From: Nitrosococcus wardiae
GTDB lineage: Bacteria > Pseudomonadota > Gammaproteobacteria > Nitrosococcales > Nitrosococcaceae
Length of the DNA stretch: 64,000 nt
Direction of reading: 5' to 3'
NCBI RefSeq assembly: GCF_004421105.1
Contig: NZ_CP038033.1
Location: 2,871,659 to 2,935,658 of the forward strand
Part shown: in pieces, positions 26,452 to 36,697 of the stretch
How positions within the stretch are numbered: the stretch's first letter is position 1
Layout of the letters: each line of letters opens with the position of its first letter
Made by a program: the position numbers and the translations under genes
Notes under the pieces: model-generated
Told to the model about the DNA's origin: nothing
Databases searched by the model: none
The model's input: only the letters and a program-made list of their open reading frames with translations

Positions 26452-27807
26452 TCAGGCATAGCGGGTCTCTGGTGAGGCCTCCTGTTCGGCTGGGGCGGCT
26501 GGCGTGTCTTCCTGCATGCTGGGCGGGAACTGGATGTCCAGGTCTTCCACTGAGAGCTTGCCGGAGATCAGGCGGGGAAGGAGGAGGTCGCGGGTTTTGG
26601 TGAGCACTCCATTCGCTTCCTCCAACGCATCTATTTCCTGGTAAAAAGGCTCAACAAGGTTAGAAAATTTATCTCGTAAGTCAGCAGGTGGGAAAAGTAA
26701 CTTTTGCTTTCCTATCAAGTCAGGCTTCAAATGGAGTACATTTGCGCCATTGGCGAACTCCTTAATGTAATTCGCAAACCCCGAATATCGCATATACGAG
26801 TAAAGAAATGTCGTTGACATCTTTTTAGGCATCAATCGAATAACGTCGAGTGAAATCACCGCTTTTTTTCCATACAAATTCGGTATACGGGCAACTTCAC
26901 CGACAACTGCGCGGTCTTGTGTCATATCGGTTACAGCCATAACCACGTCACCCGCCTCTACGCACTGACCTTCTTTATAAGAACCTGAAAAATATTTCAG
27001 TCCTTCCTTTCGGTAGCCGCCCCGACGATGAAAAGACTTCAGTGTAATAAAGAAGCAGGCGCCGTCTTCATCCGAAATCTCATGTGAAGCATATGACTTT
27101 CCTTTGATATGATCGAAGAAAACCGCGCCAACATCGAAAGGCCACCCCTCCGGCACACCTTTCACAAAACGGGTGTCCTGATAACCGGGAAAGCGCAGGC
27201 GCACAAACCATTCGCGGTAAAGTTCCTCGGCCATTTTTTCCAGCAGCGCGATGCGGCGCTTGTTGACTTCGATTAGATCGTCGTAGGCCGTCAGGATAGC
27301 GGCGATTTTGCGTTGGGTGGTGCGACTAGGAAGCGGTATCGCTATTCGTTTAACGATATCATGATTCAGTGATGCCATAGTCGCCCCAAAGGAGCACAGC
27401 GCCTGCATCCAGTCTTGGTGAGCGCGCGTTCTAAGGTAGTACGATGCATATCTTCCACAAATCGTAGTGCCGTTCAAACGTAATCGGAGACAATCCGAAC
27501 CTTGTACCCAGCCATCTTGCTTCGCGCCAATTAAAGCATGCCTCTCAACTGCTCCCTTCCTTCCAAAAACGATGTCACCTTTTTGCAGACGGTGGGCATT
27601 AAGCTTTTCAGCTTTGGCATTTGTGATGAACTCTAGGTCAGCGTCCCTTATATCCCCAAAGCCTACGTTTCGGACATTGATCACAGGTATGCCGCAATCG
27701 ACGTATTCGGAAGCCTTCAATTGGGTGCCAAAAGGCCCAGTTTGAATCTTTGCCTCCTTCTGTTCGACTAAGTCGCCAATCGTTATCATTGGAACAGACG
27801 TGTTCAT
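26452..27807 (-). CDS. hsdS: Type I restriction-modification specificity subunit S
   Basis: A 451-residue specificity subunit with two target-recognition domains. The first begins ITIGDLVEQKEAKIQTGPFG and ends with the conserved helix IPLPSRTTQRKIAAILTAYDDLIEVN. The second follows from about residue 205 and ends with LTKTRDLLLPRLISGKLSVEDL. The start overlaps the hsdM stop by four bases (ATGA). Both recognition domains are variable by nature, so the DNA target cannot be read from the sequence. The C-terminus carries a P/A/E-rich tail. Confidence 0.93.
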   Translation of the reverse strand: MNTSVPMITIGDLVEQKEAKIQTGPFGTQLKASEYVDCGIPVINVRNVGFGDIRDADLEFITNAKAEKLNAHRLQKGDIVFGRKGAVERHALIGAKQDGWVQGSDCLRLRLNGTTICGRYASYYLRTRAHQDWMQALCSFGATMASLNHDIVKRIAIPLPSRTTQRKIAAILTAYDDLIEVNKRRIALLEKMAEELYREWFVRLRFPGYQDTRFVKGVPEGWPFDVGAVFFDHIKGKSYASHEISDEDGACFFITLKSFHRRGGYRKEGLKYFSGSYKEGQCVEAGDVVMAVTDMTQDRAVVGEVARIPNLYGKKAVISLDVIRLMPKKMSTTFLYSYMRYSGFANYIKEFANGANVLHLKPDLIGKQKLLFPPADLRDKFSNLVEPFYQEIDALEEANGVLTKTRDLLLPRLISGKLSVEDLDIQFPPSMQEDTPAAPAEQEASPETRYA

Positions 27808-29900
27808 TCGCCTACAATTTTAGAAATATTCTGCGCTATGGTATTCTCGAGATGGGCTGATTGTTCAGTGAGCACGTTTAGCTGCTCCTGAAACGAAACC
27901 AAATCAGCAATAAACTCCTCCTCCGTCTTCCCATCTTCCTCAATCACCACACCCACATAACGCCCCGGATTCAGCGAATAGTCCTGCTCTTTCACTTCGG
28001 CCAGACTGGCCAGTTTGCACAGGCCGGTGACATCTTCGTATTTCGCTTCGGGGAAGCGTTCCTGCAACCAATGGATATGGCCGAAGCTGCTTTCGGCGTT
28101 TTTCACTTCCTTGTGCAATTCTTCCAACGCGGCTTTGAGTTGCCGGGTGACGCGGTCGGCGCTCTGGCGTTTGCCGGCCTGTTTGGCGGCTTCCGCCAGC
28201 GTTTTTTCGTGGCGGCGCACGGCCTTGTCGATCTGCTTGAGGCTGTCGTGCAGGGCGGTGAAAAACGGGTCGAAGGTGGCGCGCAGGGTTTGCTGGGCGC
28301 GGTTCTTTTTATCGACGGACGCCTTGCCAGTGTGTTTCTTCTGATAGTCGGCCCAGGCTTTTTCCAGGGGCGCGAGGCCGCCCCAGGTCTCCACCAGGCC
28401 GGCCACGGCTCTTTTACCGGCCTCGTCATCCAGCACCGCCAGCAGTTGTTCGGCCACCGGCTCCACCTGCCGGCGATTGTCCGCCAGCCGCGCCATGCCC
28501 TGCTCGAAATAGTGGTCGATAAGCGCGATGAATTCGTCGCGGCGGCCTTTGTGCAGGCGGCTGATGATGGCGATGTTCTGGATTTGCTCTTCCGAGAATT
28601 CGCGGTGGGCGCGGTCGATGGGGGTAAAGATATTGCGCGCATCGATAAACAGAATGCGCTCGTCCGTCTTGCCCTTGTCGAAGAACCACAGGGTGGCGGG
28701 CAGGGTGACGGTGTAGAACATATTCGACGGCAGGGTGAGCATGCCGTAGATGAGGTTGTTTTCGATTAGGGTCCGGCGGATGTCGGCCTCGGAGTGGCGC
28801 GCATCGGAGGCGGAGTTGGCCATGACCAGCGCGGCGCGCCCGCCGGGATGCTTGTCGTCGGGCTCACGGAGCGAGGTGGCGAACAGGTTGATCCACAGGT
28901 AGTTGGCGTTGGGCACCGTCTCCTTGCCCCGTTCGGATTTCTTCGCCTTGGTCTTTTTGCGCGGAATGCCGTAGGTGTTGAAGCGCGGGTCTTTTTCCAC
29001 CCCGGAGAGCGACACTTCATCCACGTTGAACGGCGGATTGGCCAGCACATAGTCGAACTTGCCGAAAGAGCCGAAGTGATCGTCGTAGTAGGAAATGCCC
29101 TGCAGGATCTGCCCGCGCAGGCCGTTGACGGCCAGGTTCATGCGCGCCAGCTTGACCGTTTCCGAGCTTTTTTCCTGCCCGGAGACGAACACGCTGGTGT
29201 CTTCGCCCCGGGCTTCAAACTCTTCACGGTGTCTTTCGATAAACTGCGCCGATTGCACGAACATGCCGCCGGAACCGCAGGCGGGATCGAACACCGTGCC
29301 GCCGTGGGGCTCGATGATCTCCACCATCAGCCGCACCACCGAGCGCGGGGTAAAGAACTCTCCGCCGCCCTGGCCTTCGGCAAGGGCGAATTTGCCAAGA
29401 AAATACTCGTAGATCTGGCCGAACACATCGCCGCCGGCGTCGTCCGGGATGTTGTCAAACTGACGCAGCAGGTCGAAGGGCAGTAGTTTGGTTTCCTGGG
29501 TGCGGGTCAGCCGGTAATACCCGTCCTTGGGCAGGCTGCCCTGGAGCTCGGGCTTATACTCCTCGATGGCTTCCATTGCCTTTTCAATGGCCTTGGCGAT
29601 GTCCCGGCTTTCGGGCAGGTTCAGCAGGTGGCTGTAACGGGCGTGATCCGGCAGGTAAAAGCCGCACTTGGCCACCGCGATTTCATTCAGCGATTTTTCC
29701 CGACGCCCGCCTTTGAGCTTTTGGTATTCCTTAAGAATAGCTGCCTCGTGTCGCCGGTAATTGATGTCGGCAAACTTGAGGAAGATCAGCCCCAGCACCG
29801 GGGTGCTGTATTCAGAGGCTTTGAGGTCGGAATTGGCGCGCAGGTTGTCGGCGGCCGACCAAAGATCGTCTTCCAGTTGTTTCAGTTGTTCTCTGTTCAA
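27804..29900 (-). CDS. hsdM: Type I restriction-modification methyltransferase subunit M
   Basis: A 698-residue N6-adenine methyltransferase. Seen: HsdM N-terminal domain (LKQLEDDLWSAADNLRAN), SAM-binding motif I DPACGSGGM (205-213), catalytic NPPF (288-291) and the EFFTPRSVVRLMVE segment. The C-terminal 250 residues are long and coiled-coil-like, as in larger HsdM forms. It is the first gene of the island operon. Long antisense frames over this gene are shadows of its codon bias. Confidence 0.95.
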   Translation of the reverse strand: MNREQLKQLEDDLWSAADNLRANSDLKASEYSTPVLGLIFLKFADINYRRHEAAILKEYQKLKGGRREKSLNEIAVAKCGFYLPDHARYSHLLNLPESRDIAKAIEKAMEAIEEYKPELQGSLPKDGYYRLTRTQETKLLPFDLLRQFDNIPDDAGGDVFGQIYEYFLGKFALAEGQGGGEFFTPRSVVRLMVEIIEPHGGTVFDPACGSGGMFVQSAQFIERHREEFEARGEDTSVFVSGQEKSSETVKLARMNLAVNGLRGQILQGISYYDDHFGSFGKFDYVLANPPFNVDEVSLSGVEKDPRFNTYGIPRKKTKAKKSERGKETVPNANYLWINLFATSLREPDDKHPGGRAALVMANSASDARHSEADIRRTLIENNLIYGMLTLPSNMFYTVTLPATLWFFDKGKTDERILFIDARNIFTPIDRAHREFSEEQIQNIAIISRLHKGRRDEFIALIDHYFEQGMARLADNRRQVEPVAEQLLAVLDDEAGKRAVAGLVETWGGLAPLEKAWADYQKKHTGKASVDKKNRAQQTLRATFDPFFTALHDSLKQIDKAVRRHEKTLAEAAKQAGKRQSADRVTRQLKAALEELHKEVKNAESSFGHIHWLQERFPEAKYEDVTGLCKLASLAEVKEQDYSLNPGRYVGVVIEEDGKTEEEFIADLVSFQEQLNVLTEQSAHLENTIAQNISKIVGE

Positions 29901-30302: not shown

Positions 30303-30332
30303 AAAATATCACACCCTCCCAACCACCCGCTT

Positions 30333-30348
30333 GGCACGGCAACTGCAT
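30333..30348 (+). promoter_or_regulatory. Sigma-54 promoter of the double-glycine peptide genes
   Basis: TGGCACGGCAACTGCA matches TGGCACG-N4-TTGCW with a single difference (C for the first T of the -12 box); both GG and GC dinucleotides are in place with correct spacing. A transcript would start near 30360 and give a leader of about 75 bases before the first peptide gene. Confidence 0.8.
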
Positions 30349-30434: not shown

Positions 30435-30725
30435 ATGAGCACACTCTTTATCGCTGACTTGGCCGAGAGCAAAACCCTGGACCAGGACGCCATGACTTCC
30501 ATCCGCGGCGGTATGCGCGCCCTTAAAAGCCGCAGCCTGTACTGGGGACCCATGGGGGACCGCTTCGTTAGCGTCAATCCGGTCCAGTCCATCGACCAGT
30601 TCCAGGGCATTAATAATGCGGTGGGCAACAATGTGGCCAACTTCGGGTTCTCTGATGTGCGCAACACCAACACTCAGAACCAGCATGCCCAGAACAATGT
30701 GAATGTGGGTGGGTTTCTTCTCTAA
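30435..30725 (+). CDS. Double-glycine leader peptide 1, Asn/Gln-rich core
   Basis: A 96-residue protein with an AAAGGAG ribosome site. Residues 1-26 form a leader (IADLAESKTLDQDAMTSIRGG) with a Gly-Gly end of the type cut by C39 peptidases of ABC exporters. The 70-residue remainder is polar and rich in N, Q, G and V, with IDQFQGINNAVGNNVANFG and NTNTQNQHAQNNVNVGG. It has no cysteines, so neither disulfide nor lanthionine bridges are expected. A sigma-54 promoter lies upstream and a homologous gene follows. Similarity of the spaced N/Q/V/G pattern to curli-like strands is suggestive only. Exported peptide is the best call; activity unknown. Confidence 0.8.
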   Translation: MSTLFIADLAESKTLDQDAMTSIRGGMRALKSRSLYWGPMGDRFVSVNPVQSIDQFQGINNAVGNNVANFGFSDVRNTNTQNQHAQNNVNVGGFLL

Positions 30726-30749
30726 ACTCAACCCGGCCTAGATGAACGA

Positions 30750-30768
30750 GGGGGGCCAACGGCCCCCC
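30750..30768 (+). terminator. GC-rich hairpin between the two peptide genes
   Basis: GGGGGGCC and GGCCCCCC form an eight-base stem with an AAC loop, 25 bases after the first stop. There is no T-run. It may stabilise the first part of the transcript or reduce expression of the second gene. Confidence 0.6.
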
Positions 30769-30789
30769 CGCTTGACAGAGGAAAGTAAC

Positions 30790-31059
30790 ATGACGTCCAT
30801 TACCATTGCCGATTTAGCTGAAAACAGAACCCTGGACTCCCGGCAGATGTCCACCCTGCGGGGCGGGAAGGCCCTCGGACTTCCCGGCTTGAGTTTTGCC
30901 AATGTGGCCGTTGATATCGATCTGAACCAGGAGATTAATCAGTTCCAATCCCTGAATATCAATGCGGCCAATAACGTGGCCAACTTTGGCTTGTTTGCCC
31001 CCAACATCAGCCCCACGGTGAACCAGAATGCCCGCTTGGATGCAAACTTATTTAGCTAA
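30790..31059 (+). CDS. Double-glycine leader peptide 2, paralogue of peptide 1
   Basis: An 89-residue protein starting at 30790 (GAGGAAAG before the ATG); an earlier in-frame ATG at 30742 lies before the hairpin and is unlikely. The 26-residue leader (IADLAENRTLDSRQMSTLRGG) is nearly the same as that of peptide 1: residues 6-11, 14-16, 20 and 24-26 are identical and most others are conservative. The 63-residue core shares INQFQ and NNVANFG with its neighbour but differs elsewhere, with no cysteines. Conserved leader with diverging core is what one expects of exported peptides sharing a processing machinery. Confidence 0.8.
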   Translation: MTSITIADLAENRTLDSRQMSTLRGGKALGLPGLSFANVAVDIDLNQEINQFQSLNINAANNVANFGLFAPNISPTVNQNARLDANLFS

Positions 31060-31074
31060 AGCTCTTCACCACTA

Positions 31075-31092
31075 AGCCCCCTTCCGGGGGCT
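31075..31092 (+). terminator. Terminator after the peptide genes
   Basis: AGCCCCC pairs with GGGGGCT around TTCC, 16 bases after the second stop, followed by GGGTGTTTG. A probable end of the peptide transcript, although the T-run is weak. Confidence 0.65.
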
Positions 31093-31694: not shown

Positions 31695-34600
31695 TCACCC
31701 AATTACAGCAAAACGTTTATCCAGCGTGCTATAGCCTAAGCCGTTTCCTTTTTTCACATTAATCTGGGTGGGAATACGCTCTTTAAGGGCCTCAATGTGG
31801 GAGATCACCCCAATCATCTTGCCACCGGCGTTCAGGTGGTCCAAAGCATCCAAGGCCGTTTCCAGGGTTTCCCCATCCAAGGCGCCAAAACCCTCGTCCA
31901 AGAATAAAGAATCAATACTGGTTTTATGACTGACCAGATCCGAGAGAGCCAAGGCCAAGGCCAAACTCACTAGAAAGCTTTCCCCCCCGGATAAGGTCTT
32001 GGTGTCCCGCACCACATCCGCTTGCCAAGTATCCACCACCTCCAAGGCCAGTTCTTCGCCCGCTTTACGATTCAGCAAATAACGGCCATATAGCCGTTCC
32101 AGTTGGCGATTAGCCAGATACACCAAGTGATCCAGGGTCAATCCCTGGGCAAAGCGGCGGAATTTATCTCCTTTTTGGGAACCAATTAGACTGCTTAACT
32201 GGGTCCAGAGATCATAGGTCTCTTGCTGCCGCTCAATCTCCATGAGATTTTTGTTCTGCGCCTCCCGTCGTCCCCGATCAGCGGTTAAGGTTTGTTTGAT
32301 CTCCCCCTGGCGCTTCATCAATTGGTGCAACTGCTGTTGGCGCTGCTCCAAATTTTCCCGGACCTGGGCAGGCGGTTGCGGGGTAAGCGGCGTTTGGCGT
32401 AATGACTGGAGTGTTTTTTCCGCTTTCTGATAGAGGACTTCAGCCTGGCCGGCTTCCCGGCTGAGTTGTTCTTTGAGTTGTGCGAGTCGATCATATTCCT
32501 CCGGCGGCAACAGGGCCTGCTCGAAACTTTCCTGATTGGGAAAGTGGCTTGCCTGCAAGGCCGCCTGCCATTCCTGCCGCGCTTTCTGGTAGTGGGTCTG
32601 TTGGGTTTGAATAGTATGCTTGAGGGTTTCAAGCGCTCCCTGTAATTGATTCATCTCAGCCTGTGCCCTTTCTTGCTGCTGCTTGCTCTGGGACAGCGCT
32701 TGTTCGGCAGTTGCCAGGGCTTCACGCCCTCGGCTTCTTTCTTCCGTCACGGTGCGATTGCCCAATAATTGCTGACGTTGTTTGATGTCTTGGGCAAGCC
32801 GGGTCTCCATCCGGCTGAGTTGTTCCGACAATTGATTTTTTTCTTTCTGATTCTGGTTTTGCTCCCGTTCCAGTTGAGTTTGTTCCATGTGCAGTTGAGT
32901 CAACTCGGTTTGCCGCTCCTGCCGTTGTTGCGCCATCCCCTGATAGGTCCGCCATAACCCTTGCTGCCGTGCTAGCCATTGGGTTTGAGTGTCCAAGGCA
33001 GGCAGCTCTCCCAAGGAGCCGGACAGTTTATTTTCCAGTTCTTGGAATTCTTTTTGTCTTCCCTTTAAATGCTGCTGCTGTTCTTGACAGGATTTCATCT
33101 GGGCGGTTTTTTGTTGCTCGACTAAAGCCTGCTGGTGTTGGACATCGGAAAGGGATTGGCGAGCCTGGATAAGGGCCTCCTTTTGCTCCCCCAATTGCTG
33201 ATCAAAATCATCCAGCCGGCCGATCAGTTGCTTAAGCTGCGCCGCTTCCTGCTCCCTTTGTGCTAACCACCGGGCAATGTCCTGGGGATGGTCGAGGCTC
33301 AAAGAGACTCCCAACGGGGCGGTGGTTTGCGTCCATTCTCCCTGTAGATTTTCCAGTACCTGATGACCTTCCTTTAAAGCCTGTTCCAAATGGCGACATT
33401 CATTTTCCCACTGTATAACGGCTGCTTTTTGTTGTTCCTCTTGGGCACGCAGGGATTCCAATTGCTGTTTCTGTTGCTGCTGGCGCTGTTGAGTGACAGA
33501 GAGATCGATCTGCTGATAGGCCGCCACCGCCGGATGTGCTTTGGAGCCGCATAGGGGACAGGCTTCCCCTTCTTGTAATTGGTCCCGGTGCTGCTCTAGG
33601 CTCACAATGCGTTGTTCCAGTTCCAACACGCGATGCAAATCATTGAGGCTTTGTTGTTCCCGGCAATAACACTGTTGTGTTTCTTCCAAGGCCGTTTGCT
33701 GGATTTTTAATTTCTGCTGACTCTCAACCAAGGTGGCTGCCTGTTGCCCTTGGCGTTCTTGTCTTTCCCGGTATTGGGAGTGAAGGGTGGTGAGCTTGAA
33801 ACGGTGGGGGGCGGCCTCCATCAATTGTTGCTGACGCTCCCGCCATTGGGCTTCTGGAGTGTGGTTTAAGAGACCGTTTTTATCCGCCAAGGTTTTTTGG
33901 TATTGAGCTTCTAGGGCTTTTAAGGCTTGTTCTCCTTGGTTTATCACTTCGGTCTGTTGTTGGATACGGACATCGCTTTTTAAAATTTCTTCTTGCTGAA
34001 TTTCAAGGGCAGCTTGAAGTTGTTGCTGTTGTTGAAACAACTGCTGCCGGCGATCGAATTGTTCCCGCCATAAGGGGAGCTGTTCTCCCAATTTCTCCTG
34101 TGAGGCGTGGGCTTGCAAATATTCTGTTGCCGTTTTTAAAGTCCTTTGGGTGTGGGCCTGTTGTTGCTGGAGTTTTTGGGCTTGTTCATCCAGGGCTGCT
34201 TGCCGGTCCGAGGTTTCTTTAATGCTCAGTTGAAGTTTATTTTTCTCCCGGTAAAGATCTGCAATCTGATTATCCAGAGGCACCACCTGTTCATTGAGCA
34301 AGTTTTCCGTTTTTTCCCATACCTCTCGCTGTTGTGCAAACCGGGTCTGTTGTTGCTGGACGTATTGTTTAATTGCAGCCAGTGCTCTGTCCTTTTTTGC
34401 CGCTTTTTGTTGTTCAACTTCCCGATTATGCTCTGCTTCCGCCAAGGCTTTTTGGCTAGCTTGCACTTCCAAATAGTGAGGCCTTAGCTTCAGGGCCGGC
34501 AGTGCCTGCTCCAAATTTTGCAATGCCCCTTGCTGGGCTTTGATCTTCTCCTGCACTCCTTGCCAATGACTCCGGGCTTGAACCCGTTGGGTTTCTGCCT

Positions 34601-35354
34601 CTTCTATTTTCTCTAGCCATTGTTTTTGTTCCGTCAATTGCTGCAAATCTTGCTTTAGTGTTTTTTCCTGCTCTTCGAGAGTGTGTTGCTCCCGCCTTAG
34701 GGTAGCGAGGGCTTCCTTGTCCAACAGTTCCACCCCCTCAATCTTTGCTTTTAGCACATTAAACCGCACTTCCTCCTGGCGCTTACGCTCATAAACCCGG
34801 CGGGAAATTTCGCCATAGATCTCAGTGCCGGTGAGTTCTTCCAAAAGTTCCGCCCGCTCATTGGGAATAGCGTTGAGAAAGGCGGCAAAGCCCCCCTGGG
34901 CGAGCAACATGGATTTGGTGAAACGGCCAAAATCCAATCCCGTAAGCTCGCTGATGAGATGAAGCTTTTCACCGATTTTATCAGCAATGATGGTCCCGTC
35001 GGCTTTGGCCAATTCCACTTGGGGAGATTGCAATTTGCCTTCCGGTTTATAGTGGGCCCGGCGCTGGCTCCAAAAAGCCCGATAGGCCTCCCCCTTGACT
35101 TCAAAGTCCACTTCGGCGAGGGCTTCCCCCGTATGTCGGGTCATCAGTTCATTACTCTCTCCTGATACCTTAAGGCGGGGGGTTTGATGATAGAGGGCCA
35201 AGCAAATAGCATCCAACAGGCTAGATTTCCCTGCCCCCGTCGGTCCGGTAATAGCAAAGAGGCCGTTGGCGGCAAATTCCGGTACCGTAAAATCGATTTT
35301 CCACTCCCCTTTGAGAGAATTAATATTTTTCAACCGCAGGCTCAGGATTTTCAT
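31695..35354 (-). CDS. sbcC: SbcC, ATPase subunit of the SbcCD nuclease
   Basis: A Rad50-like SMC protein of 1219 residues. Walker A is GPTGAGKS (37-44). Long heptad-rich coiled coils rich in Q flank the zinc hook C-P-L-C ([11 protein letters not shown]), and the C-terminal ATPase half has the TLSGGESF signature and Walker [14 protein letters not shown]. It forms the SbcCD complex with SbcD, which opens DNA hairpins and processes double-strand ends. The start overlaps the sbcD stop (ATGA), so the start at 35354 is firm. Confidence 0.95.
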
Positions 35355-36607
35355 AAGCGGCCCCACTTCTGGGAGTCTTCCCTAGCTGACTGGCCGGGCG
35401 CTAGTTCTGCTGCGATCTGTTGGAACGCAGTTTTCAGGTTAGCAACCAGGGCTTCATCCTGAAAATCTTCCAAGGATAACCGCCGCTCAAAAACCTCCTC
35501 GATAGTGAGCTCTGTTAAAGTCTCCTTGGCCTCTCGTCTCAGGGCCGCCGGCCGCCCCCGGCGCTGGCGCCGCACCCTGAGCAGATCAACGGGCTTGCCC
35601 TCGCACAAAGCCTGAACCCGATTTTGCAGATCACTGAGGTAATCATCCCCCGCCACCTCCACTTCCAACCATAGGCTTTCCTGGGGGGGCACCGAAGTCA
35701 TGAGTTCATTGAGCTGTTCTTCAATCTCCGACAAGCTCCCTTGCAGAATTTGCAGGTGTTGGAAGCGGGGCACTGGTAGCGGTTCCACTTGTTGCAATCT
35801 ACCTTGGGCAAAATCCGCCAAAAGCACCTGTTTAGGGCTCGCCGCCTCATCAAAGCTAAGGGGAATAGGAGAACCGGAATAACGAATATGATCGTGTTGG
35901 CCCACCCTTTGGGCTTGGTGCAAATGTCCTAGGGCAATATAATCGGCCGGGGGAAAGGCGCTAGCGGGAAACGCCTCCAAAGTCCCGATATAAATTTCCC
36001 GCACCGATTCTGATATTTCCCCTCCTACCGTGGTGAGGTGCCCGGTGGCAATAATGGGCAATTGTTCTCCCTGGCTATCCCGCTGTTCGCAAGCCAATTG
36101 ATAAAGACGGTCATAATGGACCTGGATGGCACTCTGCAGGGCTTGTCGTTTGTCTTGTCCACTTTCCCCAGCCTGACTGGTTAATACTTCCCGCGGACGG
36201 AGATAGGGAACAGCGCACAGCACGGCTCCCGGCTGACCATCACGCCGCTTCAAGACCCTCACCTGCTGCGCCAAAGACCCATCTATCCCCCCTACGACCT
36301 GGGCATTGAGGCACGCCAACAACTGCCGGGATTCATGCAGGGTAGCCACGGAATCATGATTGCCACCGATGACCACTAACTGACAACCCGTCGGTTGCAA
36401 AGAGACCACAAAATTATTGTACAGGGCCCGGGCATAACTAGGCGGCGTACCCGTATCGAAAATATCTCCGGCCACAATTAGAGCATCGACCCCCTGTTCT
36501 TTGATTTGCACCAGTAGCCAATCCAGAAAGGCCTGGTGTTCTTGTTCTCGGCTCTTTCCCATAAAATATTGCCCTAGATGCCAGTCGGAAGTGTGCATAA
36601 TCCGCAT
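35351..36607 (-). CDS. sbcD: SbcD, nuclease subunit of SbcCD
   Basis: Mre11-like metallophosphoesterase of 418 residues. It shows the five-motif set: HTSDWHLGQ at the N-terminus, [23 protein letters not shown] and ALGHLHQAQ. The ATG at 36607 ([12 protein letters not shown]) is preferred over the codon four residues upstream. sbcC follows with translational coupling. The divergent hybrid kinase gene starts 90 bases upstream on the other strand. Confidence 0.95.
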
Positions 36608-36697
36608 TGCTGAACCCATTTCCCCCTTAGGCTAATATTAGAATTCAAAGTAGTCTCAGAGGCAGTACCCAAAAAGATAGAATAACGGCACAATGAT

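Follow-up and report, generated by a model that had tools for sequence, protein, structure and literature searches.

Homologous double-glycine leader peptides in Nitrosococcus wardiae, their sigma-54-type promoter and a candidate C39 export system

Results and discussion

The A/B gene pair

Nitrosococcus wardiae is a marine ammonia-oxidising bacterium, and the AMO family was found in all six genomes of its taxonomic family that were searched. These are strain D1FHS (G000), from which the stretch of 64 kb analysed here (the window) originates, Nitrosococcus halophilus (G001) and four other family members (G002–G005). The window contains two small adjacent genes, here called A and B, with the following features:

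30332..30347, + strand: sigma-54-type −24/−12 promoter, 11 of 12 consensus positions, 103 bases 5' of A
30435..30725, + strand: type A Gly-Gly precursor, 96 aa (leader 1–26, core 27–96)
30435..30512, + strand: leader of A, with RGG at its end
30750..30769, + strand: strong hairpin without a T run in the A-B spacer (64-base spacer, −22.4 kcal/mol)
30790..31059, + strand: type B Gly-Gly precursor, 89 aa counted from the ATG at 30790
30790..30867, + strand: leader of B, with RGG at its end
31076..31092, + strand: GC-rich hairpin 3' of B, possible transcription end (60 bases, −22.9 kcal/mol)

Both open reading frames were confirmed where the initial annotation had placed them, as were the leader pattern and the motifs I[DN]QFQ and NNVANFG, which are common to A and B. 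Three findings go beyond that annotation, namely the promoter, the relatedness of the A and B cores and a conserved hairpin in the spacer. The longest open reading frame of B starts at 30742 and comprises 105 aa. An alternative start, the ATG at 30790, is preceded by GAGGAAAG and is the likely start of B (89 aa), since the resulting 26-residue leader aligns with that of A. By eye, genes resembling a type I restriction-modification system adjoin the pair on one side (26452–29900) and a large SMC-like nuclease pair flanks it on the other (31695–36619).

Leaders and cores

Double-glycine leaders of the C39 type end in GG and carry hydrophobic residues at positions −4, −7 and −12. This leader type was found in A and B, both of which have I or L at −4, M at −7, L at −12 and a GG end. 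The cores (63–70 residues) had been described as rich in Asn and Gln and free of cysteine, which proved correct: N+Q amounts to 26% and 25%, a content reached by 0.55% of 4686 70-residue segments of other ORFs. They had also been described as diverging apart from the two motifs. Instead, alignment of the core alignments with hhalign yielded an E-value of 1.8e-9 with 40% identity over 53 columns, so that the cores of A and B are homologous as judged by sequence comparison. In a search of its own genome B matched A with an E-value of 5e-11. Together with the copies under purifying selection in two species, this match places the likeness of A and B beyond chance.

Searches of A, B and their relatives against Pfam and NCBIfam revealed no curated family above cut-off. 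PF10439 matched one beta B-like peptide below its cut-off (E 0.045), and the curlin repeat of Pfam gave no match at E-values up to 10. AlphaFold models, with mean pLDDT values of 33.6 and 44.6, were too poor to be of use. Used as a single-protein query against the genome contigs, B retrieved no relatives, the family being too divergent for such a search.

Promoter and RNA hairpins

Of the 13 full-length A genes of the two Nitrosococcus species, 12 have a −24/−12 element 98–105 bases 5' of the start; it is missing from one A copy (h_A_2069) and from X_50k/h_X_834. None of the B genes has such a site, as expected for the second gene of a pair. Sites of this type also precede Gly-Gly genes with other cores, including genes of other genera. 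A site within 300 bases that matches at least 9 of 12 consensus positions of the element (GG and GC spaced 10 bases apart) is present in 33 of 58 Gly-Gly genes, gathered by leader profile from the examined loci. Among other ORFs of N. wardiae with at least 150 aa, 12 of 158 have one (Fisher p 9e-14, a value that overstates independence because the 58 genes include orthologues, paralogues and operon-internal genes). Outside Nitrosococcus, 13 of 26 Gly-Gly genes have a site of this quality. The −24/−12 element that marks a sigma-54 regulon is thus present, and judged from these sites the pair is quite probably under sigma-54 control.

Each of the six further A-B spacers of Nitrosococcus that were folded likewise has a predicted hairpin (−13.8 to −59.7 kcal/mol), with sequences that differ in some cases. 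As a guess, the spacer hairpin may set the ratio of A to B. The hairpin 3' of B was not called by the terminator scan, and the scan for TGA-type sigma-70 promoters and terminators performed at chance level.

Copies and selection in Nitrosococcus

A check for paralogues sharing the leader, proposed in the initial annotation, revealed seven A loci, of which one is truncated, and four B loci, of which one has decayed, in N. wardiae. N. halophilus has seven A and three B loci. Copies of A or B were not found in G002–G005; the leader profile matched nothing in G002, G004 and G005, and its single match in G003 was at chance level (E 1.98).

Comparison of eight A or B pairs between N. wardiae and N. 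halophilus resulted in dN/dS values of 0.05–0.21, and values of 0.04–0.18 were obtained for three other Gly-Gly genes. Summed across all copies, pN/pS is 0.27 for the core and 0.35 for the leader of A, and 0.19 and 0.26, respectively, for B. From these values, the A and B genes are constrained, the cores at least as strongly as the leaders.

Small genes that by eye resemble HicA/HicB adjoin an orthologous A-B pair in both species (L051:17826-18292, L062:11287-11654). Tandem Gly-Gly genes were observed at L056:9803-10210 and L136:8571-9066; one of the cores is glycine-rich and bacteriocin-like, the other contains PGPTFP repeats, with N. wardiae and N. halophilus differing in repeat number.

The C39 exporter and its gene cluster

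A search for C39 domains within the window gave no match, in agreement with the earlier statement that no exporter is nearby. The C39 family occurs at two places in the genome of N. wardiae, a disrupted ABC exporter gene at around 36–39 kb and a gene for a 243-aa protein at around 1.04 Mb. Both loci are present in N. halophilus, in which the exporter is intact (1016 aa). A C39-domain ABC transporter, which the initial annotation had suggested looking for, is hence encoded in both genomes, in disrupted form in N. wardiae. The accompanying claim that export must act in trans holds insofar as the gene lies elsewhere in the genome. In relatives, however, such peptides adjoin the exporter cluster, so that the arrangement reflects dispersal within Nitrosococcus.

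Pfam assigns two cNMP domains, a C39 domain, an ABC membrane domain and an ABC ATPase domain to the exporter. This two-cNMP type, clustered with PpiC and a sigma-54 activator, was the only C39-ABC exporter found. Its neighbours in N. halophilus encode an outer-membrane efflux protein (OMF), an FHA protein, HlyD, a PpiC-type protein, a sigma-54 activator and PP2C; the order of these neighbours places the activator gene immediately 3' of the exporter gene. Further genes of the cluster code for a caspase-like protein, a VWA-FHA protein, a Ser/Thr-kinase-like protein (named by eye) and others. The PpiC-type protein is related to TIGR04500 (82 bits, cut-off 180). Scores of the N. halophilus exporter remained below the curated cut-offs both for NHLP bacteriocin export (TIGR03796, 551 bits, cut-off 853) and for the HlyB type (TIGR01846, 628 bits, cut-off 726); the leader type of these systems differs from that of the Gly-Gly pair. 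No RiPP-modifying enzyme was detected among 10 distinct cluster proteins scanned.

Relatives in other genera

A search of named genomes with the PpiC alignment yielded six loci, which are given here together with genome G256:

L148, Noviherbaspirillum sp. Root189: cluster present, five Gly-Gly genes beside it
L149, Noviherbaspirillum aerium: cluster present, four Gly-Gly genes beside it
L150, Thiogranum MAG: cluster present, three Gly-Gly genes beside it
L151, Thiotrichales MAG (contig identical to that of G223): cluster present, no Gly-Gly genes on the short contig
L152, Noviherbaspirillum malthae: cluster present, no Gly-Gly genes on the short contig
L153, Oxalobacteraceae MAG: half-length PpiC, exporter not found on the locus, six Gly-Gly genes nearby
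G256: cluster present, two Gly-Gly genes beside the PP2C gene

PpiC, the C39-ABC exporter and the sigma-54 activator occur together in G001, G223 (= L151), G256, L148, L149, L150 and L152, and homologous peptides adjoin the cluster at two of the three Noviherbaspirillum loci. Relatives of OMF, FHA and HlyD were found in G001, G223/L151, G256 and L150, and not within the Noviherbaspirillum stretches examined.

Among the six genomes of the family, peptides and C39 exporter are both present in G000 and G001 and both absent from G002–G005. At class level (369 genomes), the leader profile matched four genomes at E ≤ 0.001 (G000, G223, G256 and G265), so the homologous leaders that the initial annotation expected elsewhere do exist, other genera included. 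PpiC matched seven genomes at E ≤ 1e-20, three of them strongly (E ≤ 1e-139; G000, G223 and G256), which means that three of the four leader-bearing genomes have a strong PpiC. The PpiC and leader profiles included genomes that were counted later; an earlier leader profile built from Nitrosococcus alone already found G223, G256 and G265. G265 has leader genes (L132:990-1338, one with a sigma-54 site), yet no C39 match. In G194, G293, G306 and G390 (L164–L167), which had no leader match, PpiC has distant relatives (E 1e-22 to 1e-26), perhaps a sign of related systems that use other peptides.

For a comparison of cores only, leaders were removed from 54 peptides and each core was shuffled 50 times as a control, since biased composition can inflate such scores; four peptides were excluded because their core had at most 25 residues or no cut site was recognised in them. 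The Nitrosococcus B model matched B-like cores of Noviherbaspirillum (E 3e-6 and 2e-5) and that of L153 (0.0043; best shuffle 0.011). The Nitrosococcus A model matched cores of L153 (E 6e-4, 0.0028, 0.014 and 0.019) and one of L148 (0.016; best shuffle 0.042), the other A-like cores of L148 and L149 scoring no better than shuffles. With the beta A model, the top Nitrosococcus match was B (E 1.3e-5), followed by A (1.5e-4; best shuffle 0.086), and the assignment to A or B is therefore not clean across genera. A model of a further type, C, linked L148/L149 to L057 and L067 (3.6e-9, in Nitrosococcus, and 1.3e-8) and to L134 (2.6e-5; best shuffle 0.0075); a D type (L051, L061, L130 and L153) was recognised by eye only. 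The A-like cores of Oxalobacteraceae contain merely 15–18% N+Q. By these scores the cores, stripped of their leaders, are homologous across genera.

Disruption of the exporter operon in N. wardiae

Comparison of N. wardiae ORFs of at least 100 aa with their N. halophilus orthologues revealed internal breaks in five of nine cluster genes (C39-ABC, PpiC, HlyD, VWA-FHA and caspase-like) and in none of 76 genes elsewhere. The uncorrected mechanical tally was 6/9 versus 7/76, from which stops preceding a later Met or located within the last 12 codons were discounted as non-internal (one of the six in the cluster, all seven of the others). Two frameshifts and one stop interrupt the C39-ABC gene, and a single stop is present in each of PpiC and HlyD; on the neighbouring stretch, two frame breaks occur in the FHA gene. 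The reading frames of OMF, both activators and PP2C remain open.

The dN/dS values of C39-ABC, PpiC and HlyD (0.04–0.10) are still low, which indicates either a recent loss or an assembly fault. If the breaks were assembly errors, the exporter would be intact and the pair in the window still exported, and two of the breaks, being one-base length changes of which one lies at a C run, would fit. This reading appears rather improbable in view of substitution stops in three adjacent genes, frame breaks in further cluster genes and the lack of any internal break in the 76 genes elsewhere in the assembly. In addition, the cut site has lost its second Gly in two A copies of N. wardiae, a residue that their N. 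halophilus counterparts retain. The exporter operon of N. wardiae thus looks recently inactivated, while the system of N. halophilus looks intact. With its exporter operon disrupted, the pair in the window is probably stranded and perhaps no longer exported.

Proposed function

We propose that A and B form one sigma-54-driven unit encoding two homologous precursors, which the linked activator would switch on together with sigma-54. The two-cNMP C39-ABC exporter would cut each leader after GG and export the core; a HlyD adaptor and an outer-membrane factor of the TolC type would complete the route. Outside the cell, A and B would work jointly as small proteins that self-associate at the surface or in a matrix. 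Export by this class of exporter is very probable. For the whole explanation, sigma-54-controlled C39 export of co-acting surface or matrix peptides, we regard the chances as evenly balanced, and the structural role taken by itself as plausible but slightly on the doubtful side. The many near-identical copies, their low dN/dS and the fixed order of A before B speak for a structural product rather than a bacteriocin or a signal, but fall short of proof.

Bacteriocins classically have Gly-Gly leaders and C39 exporters, and other Gly-Gly genes with the same leader have cores of the GxxxG type (L056:9803-10006). A and B could accordingly be a two-peptide bacteriocin, similar to class II microcins and exported against competitors. 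We consider this unlikely: no bacteriocin family scored above cut-off, a candidate immunity gene recurring beside A-B pairs was not seen by eye, near-identical copies number up to ten per genome, and the cores are conserved across distant genera instead of diversifying. The Ser/Thr-kinase-like protein, PP2C, FHA proteins and sigma-54 activators of the cluster would suit extracellular signals that are sensed back through its FHA, PP2C and kinase genes. Usual peptide signals are much shorter than 63–70 residues, though, the many identical copies fit a bulk product and a peptide receptor was not identified, so a signalling role seems improbable as well.

Following the structural reading, the cluster might represent, though less likely than not, an undescribed surface-fibre or matrix system of Proteobacteria. 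Sigma-54 and a dedicated activator would co-switch peptide types A, B, C and probably D under control by nucleotides and phosphorylation; a cNMP-C39 type I exporter with its own PpiC would release them for co-assembly outside the cell. In Nitrosococcus the peptide genes would have spread over the chromosome as copies, and loss of the exporter in one species would have left them stranded there. Within the terms and open-access papers searched, no description of the cluster with its peptides was found. If true, the system joins sigma-54 control, a nucleotide-gated C39 exporter and defined N/Q-rich substrates, provides candidate substrates for the cNMP-C39 exporter class and hints at a protein matrix in marine nitrifiers, with N. 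wardiae and N. halophilus as a natural experiment without and with the exporter.

Comparison with known systems

HetC of Nostoc PCC 7120 is the best-studied cNMP-C39 exporter, without a known substrate, and its cNMP domain is required and binds ppGpp in vitro (PMC10986499). Like the exporter described here, HetC combines cNMP, C39 and ABC domains within one protein; a gene for a membrane fusion protein is not near hetC (PMC10986499), whereas candidate substrates are linked in the present cluster, as are OMF and HlyD in gammaproteobacteria. In Synechococcus elongatus, the small Gly-Gly proteins EbfG1-4 are exported with the C39 transporter PteB and needed for biofilm; EbfG1-3 form amyloid, and a matrix role of EbfG was proposed (PMC4997328, PMC9981879). 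By these descriptions, several small Gly-Gly proteins, a C39 exporter and cores without known domains are shared with the present system, whose exporter differs in having two cNMP domains and linkage to PpiC, PP2C and a sigma-54 activator. We regard EbfG/PteB as the nearest precedent for the way in which the present system would work, a likeness drawn from description.

The subunits of curli (CsgA/CsgB) and of Pseudomonas Fap are secreted, rich in N and Q, and produced as a pair or a set. In contrast to these, A and B have a Gly-Gly leader instead of a Sec signal, and no curlin match. Near 1.04 Mb in N. wardiae (L049:8555-12204), the 243-aa C39 protein has a signal-like N-terminus and is located beside a possible barrel protein; Pfam detected C39 only in this region, plus a weak barrel family. 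Three small proteins encoded there have a signal-like start followed by an LSxxxMDxVTAG-like stretch, and the locus is one that we take to resemble the Fap type.
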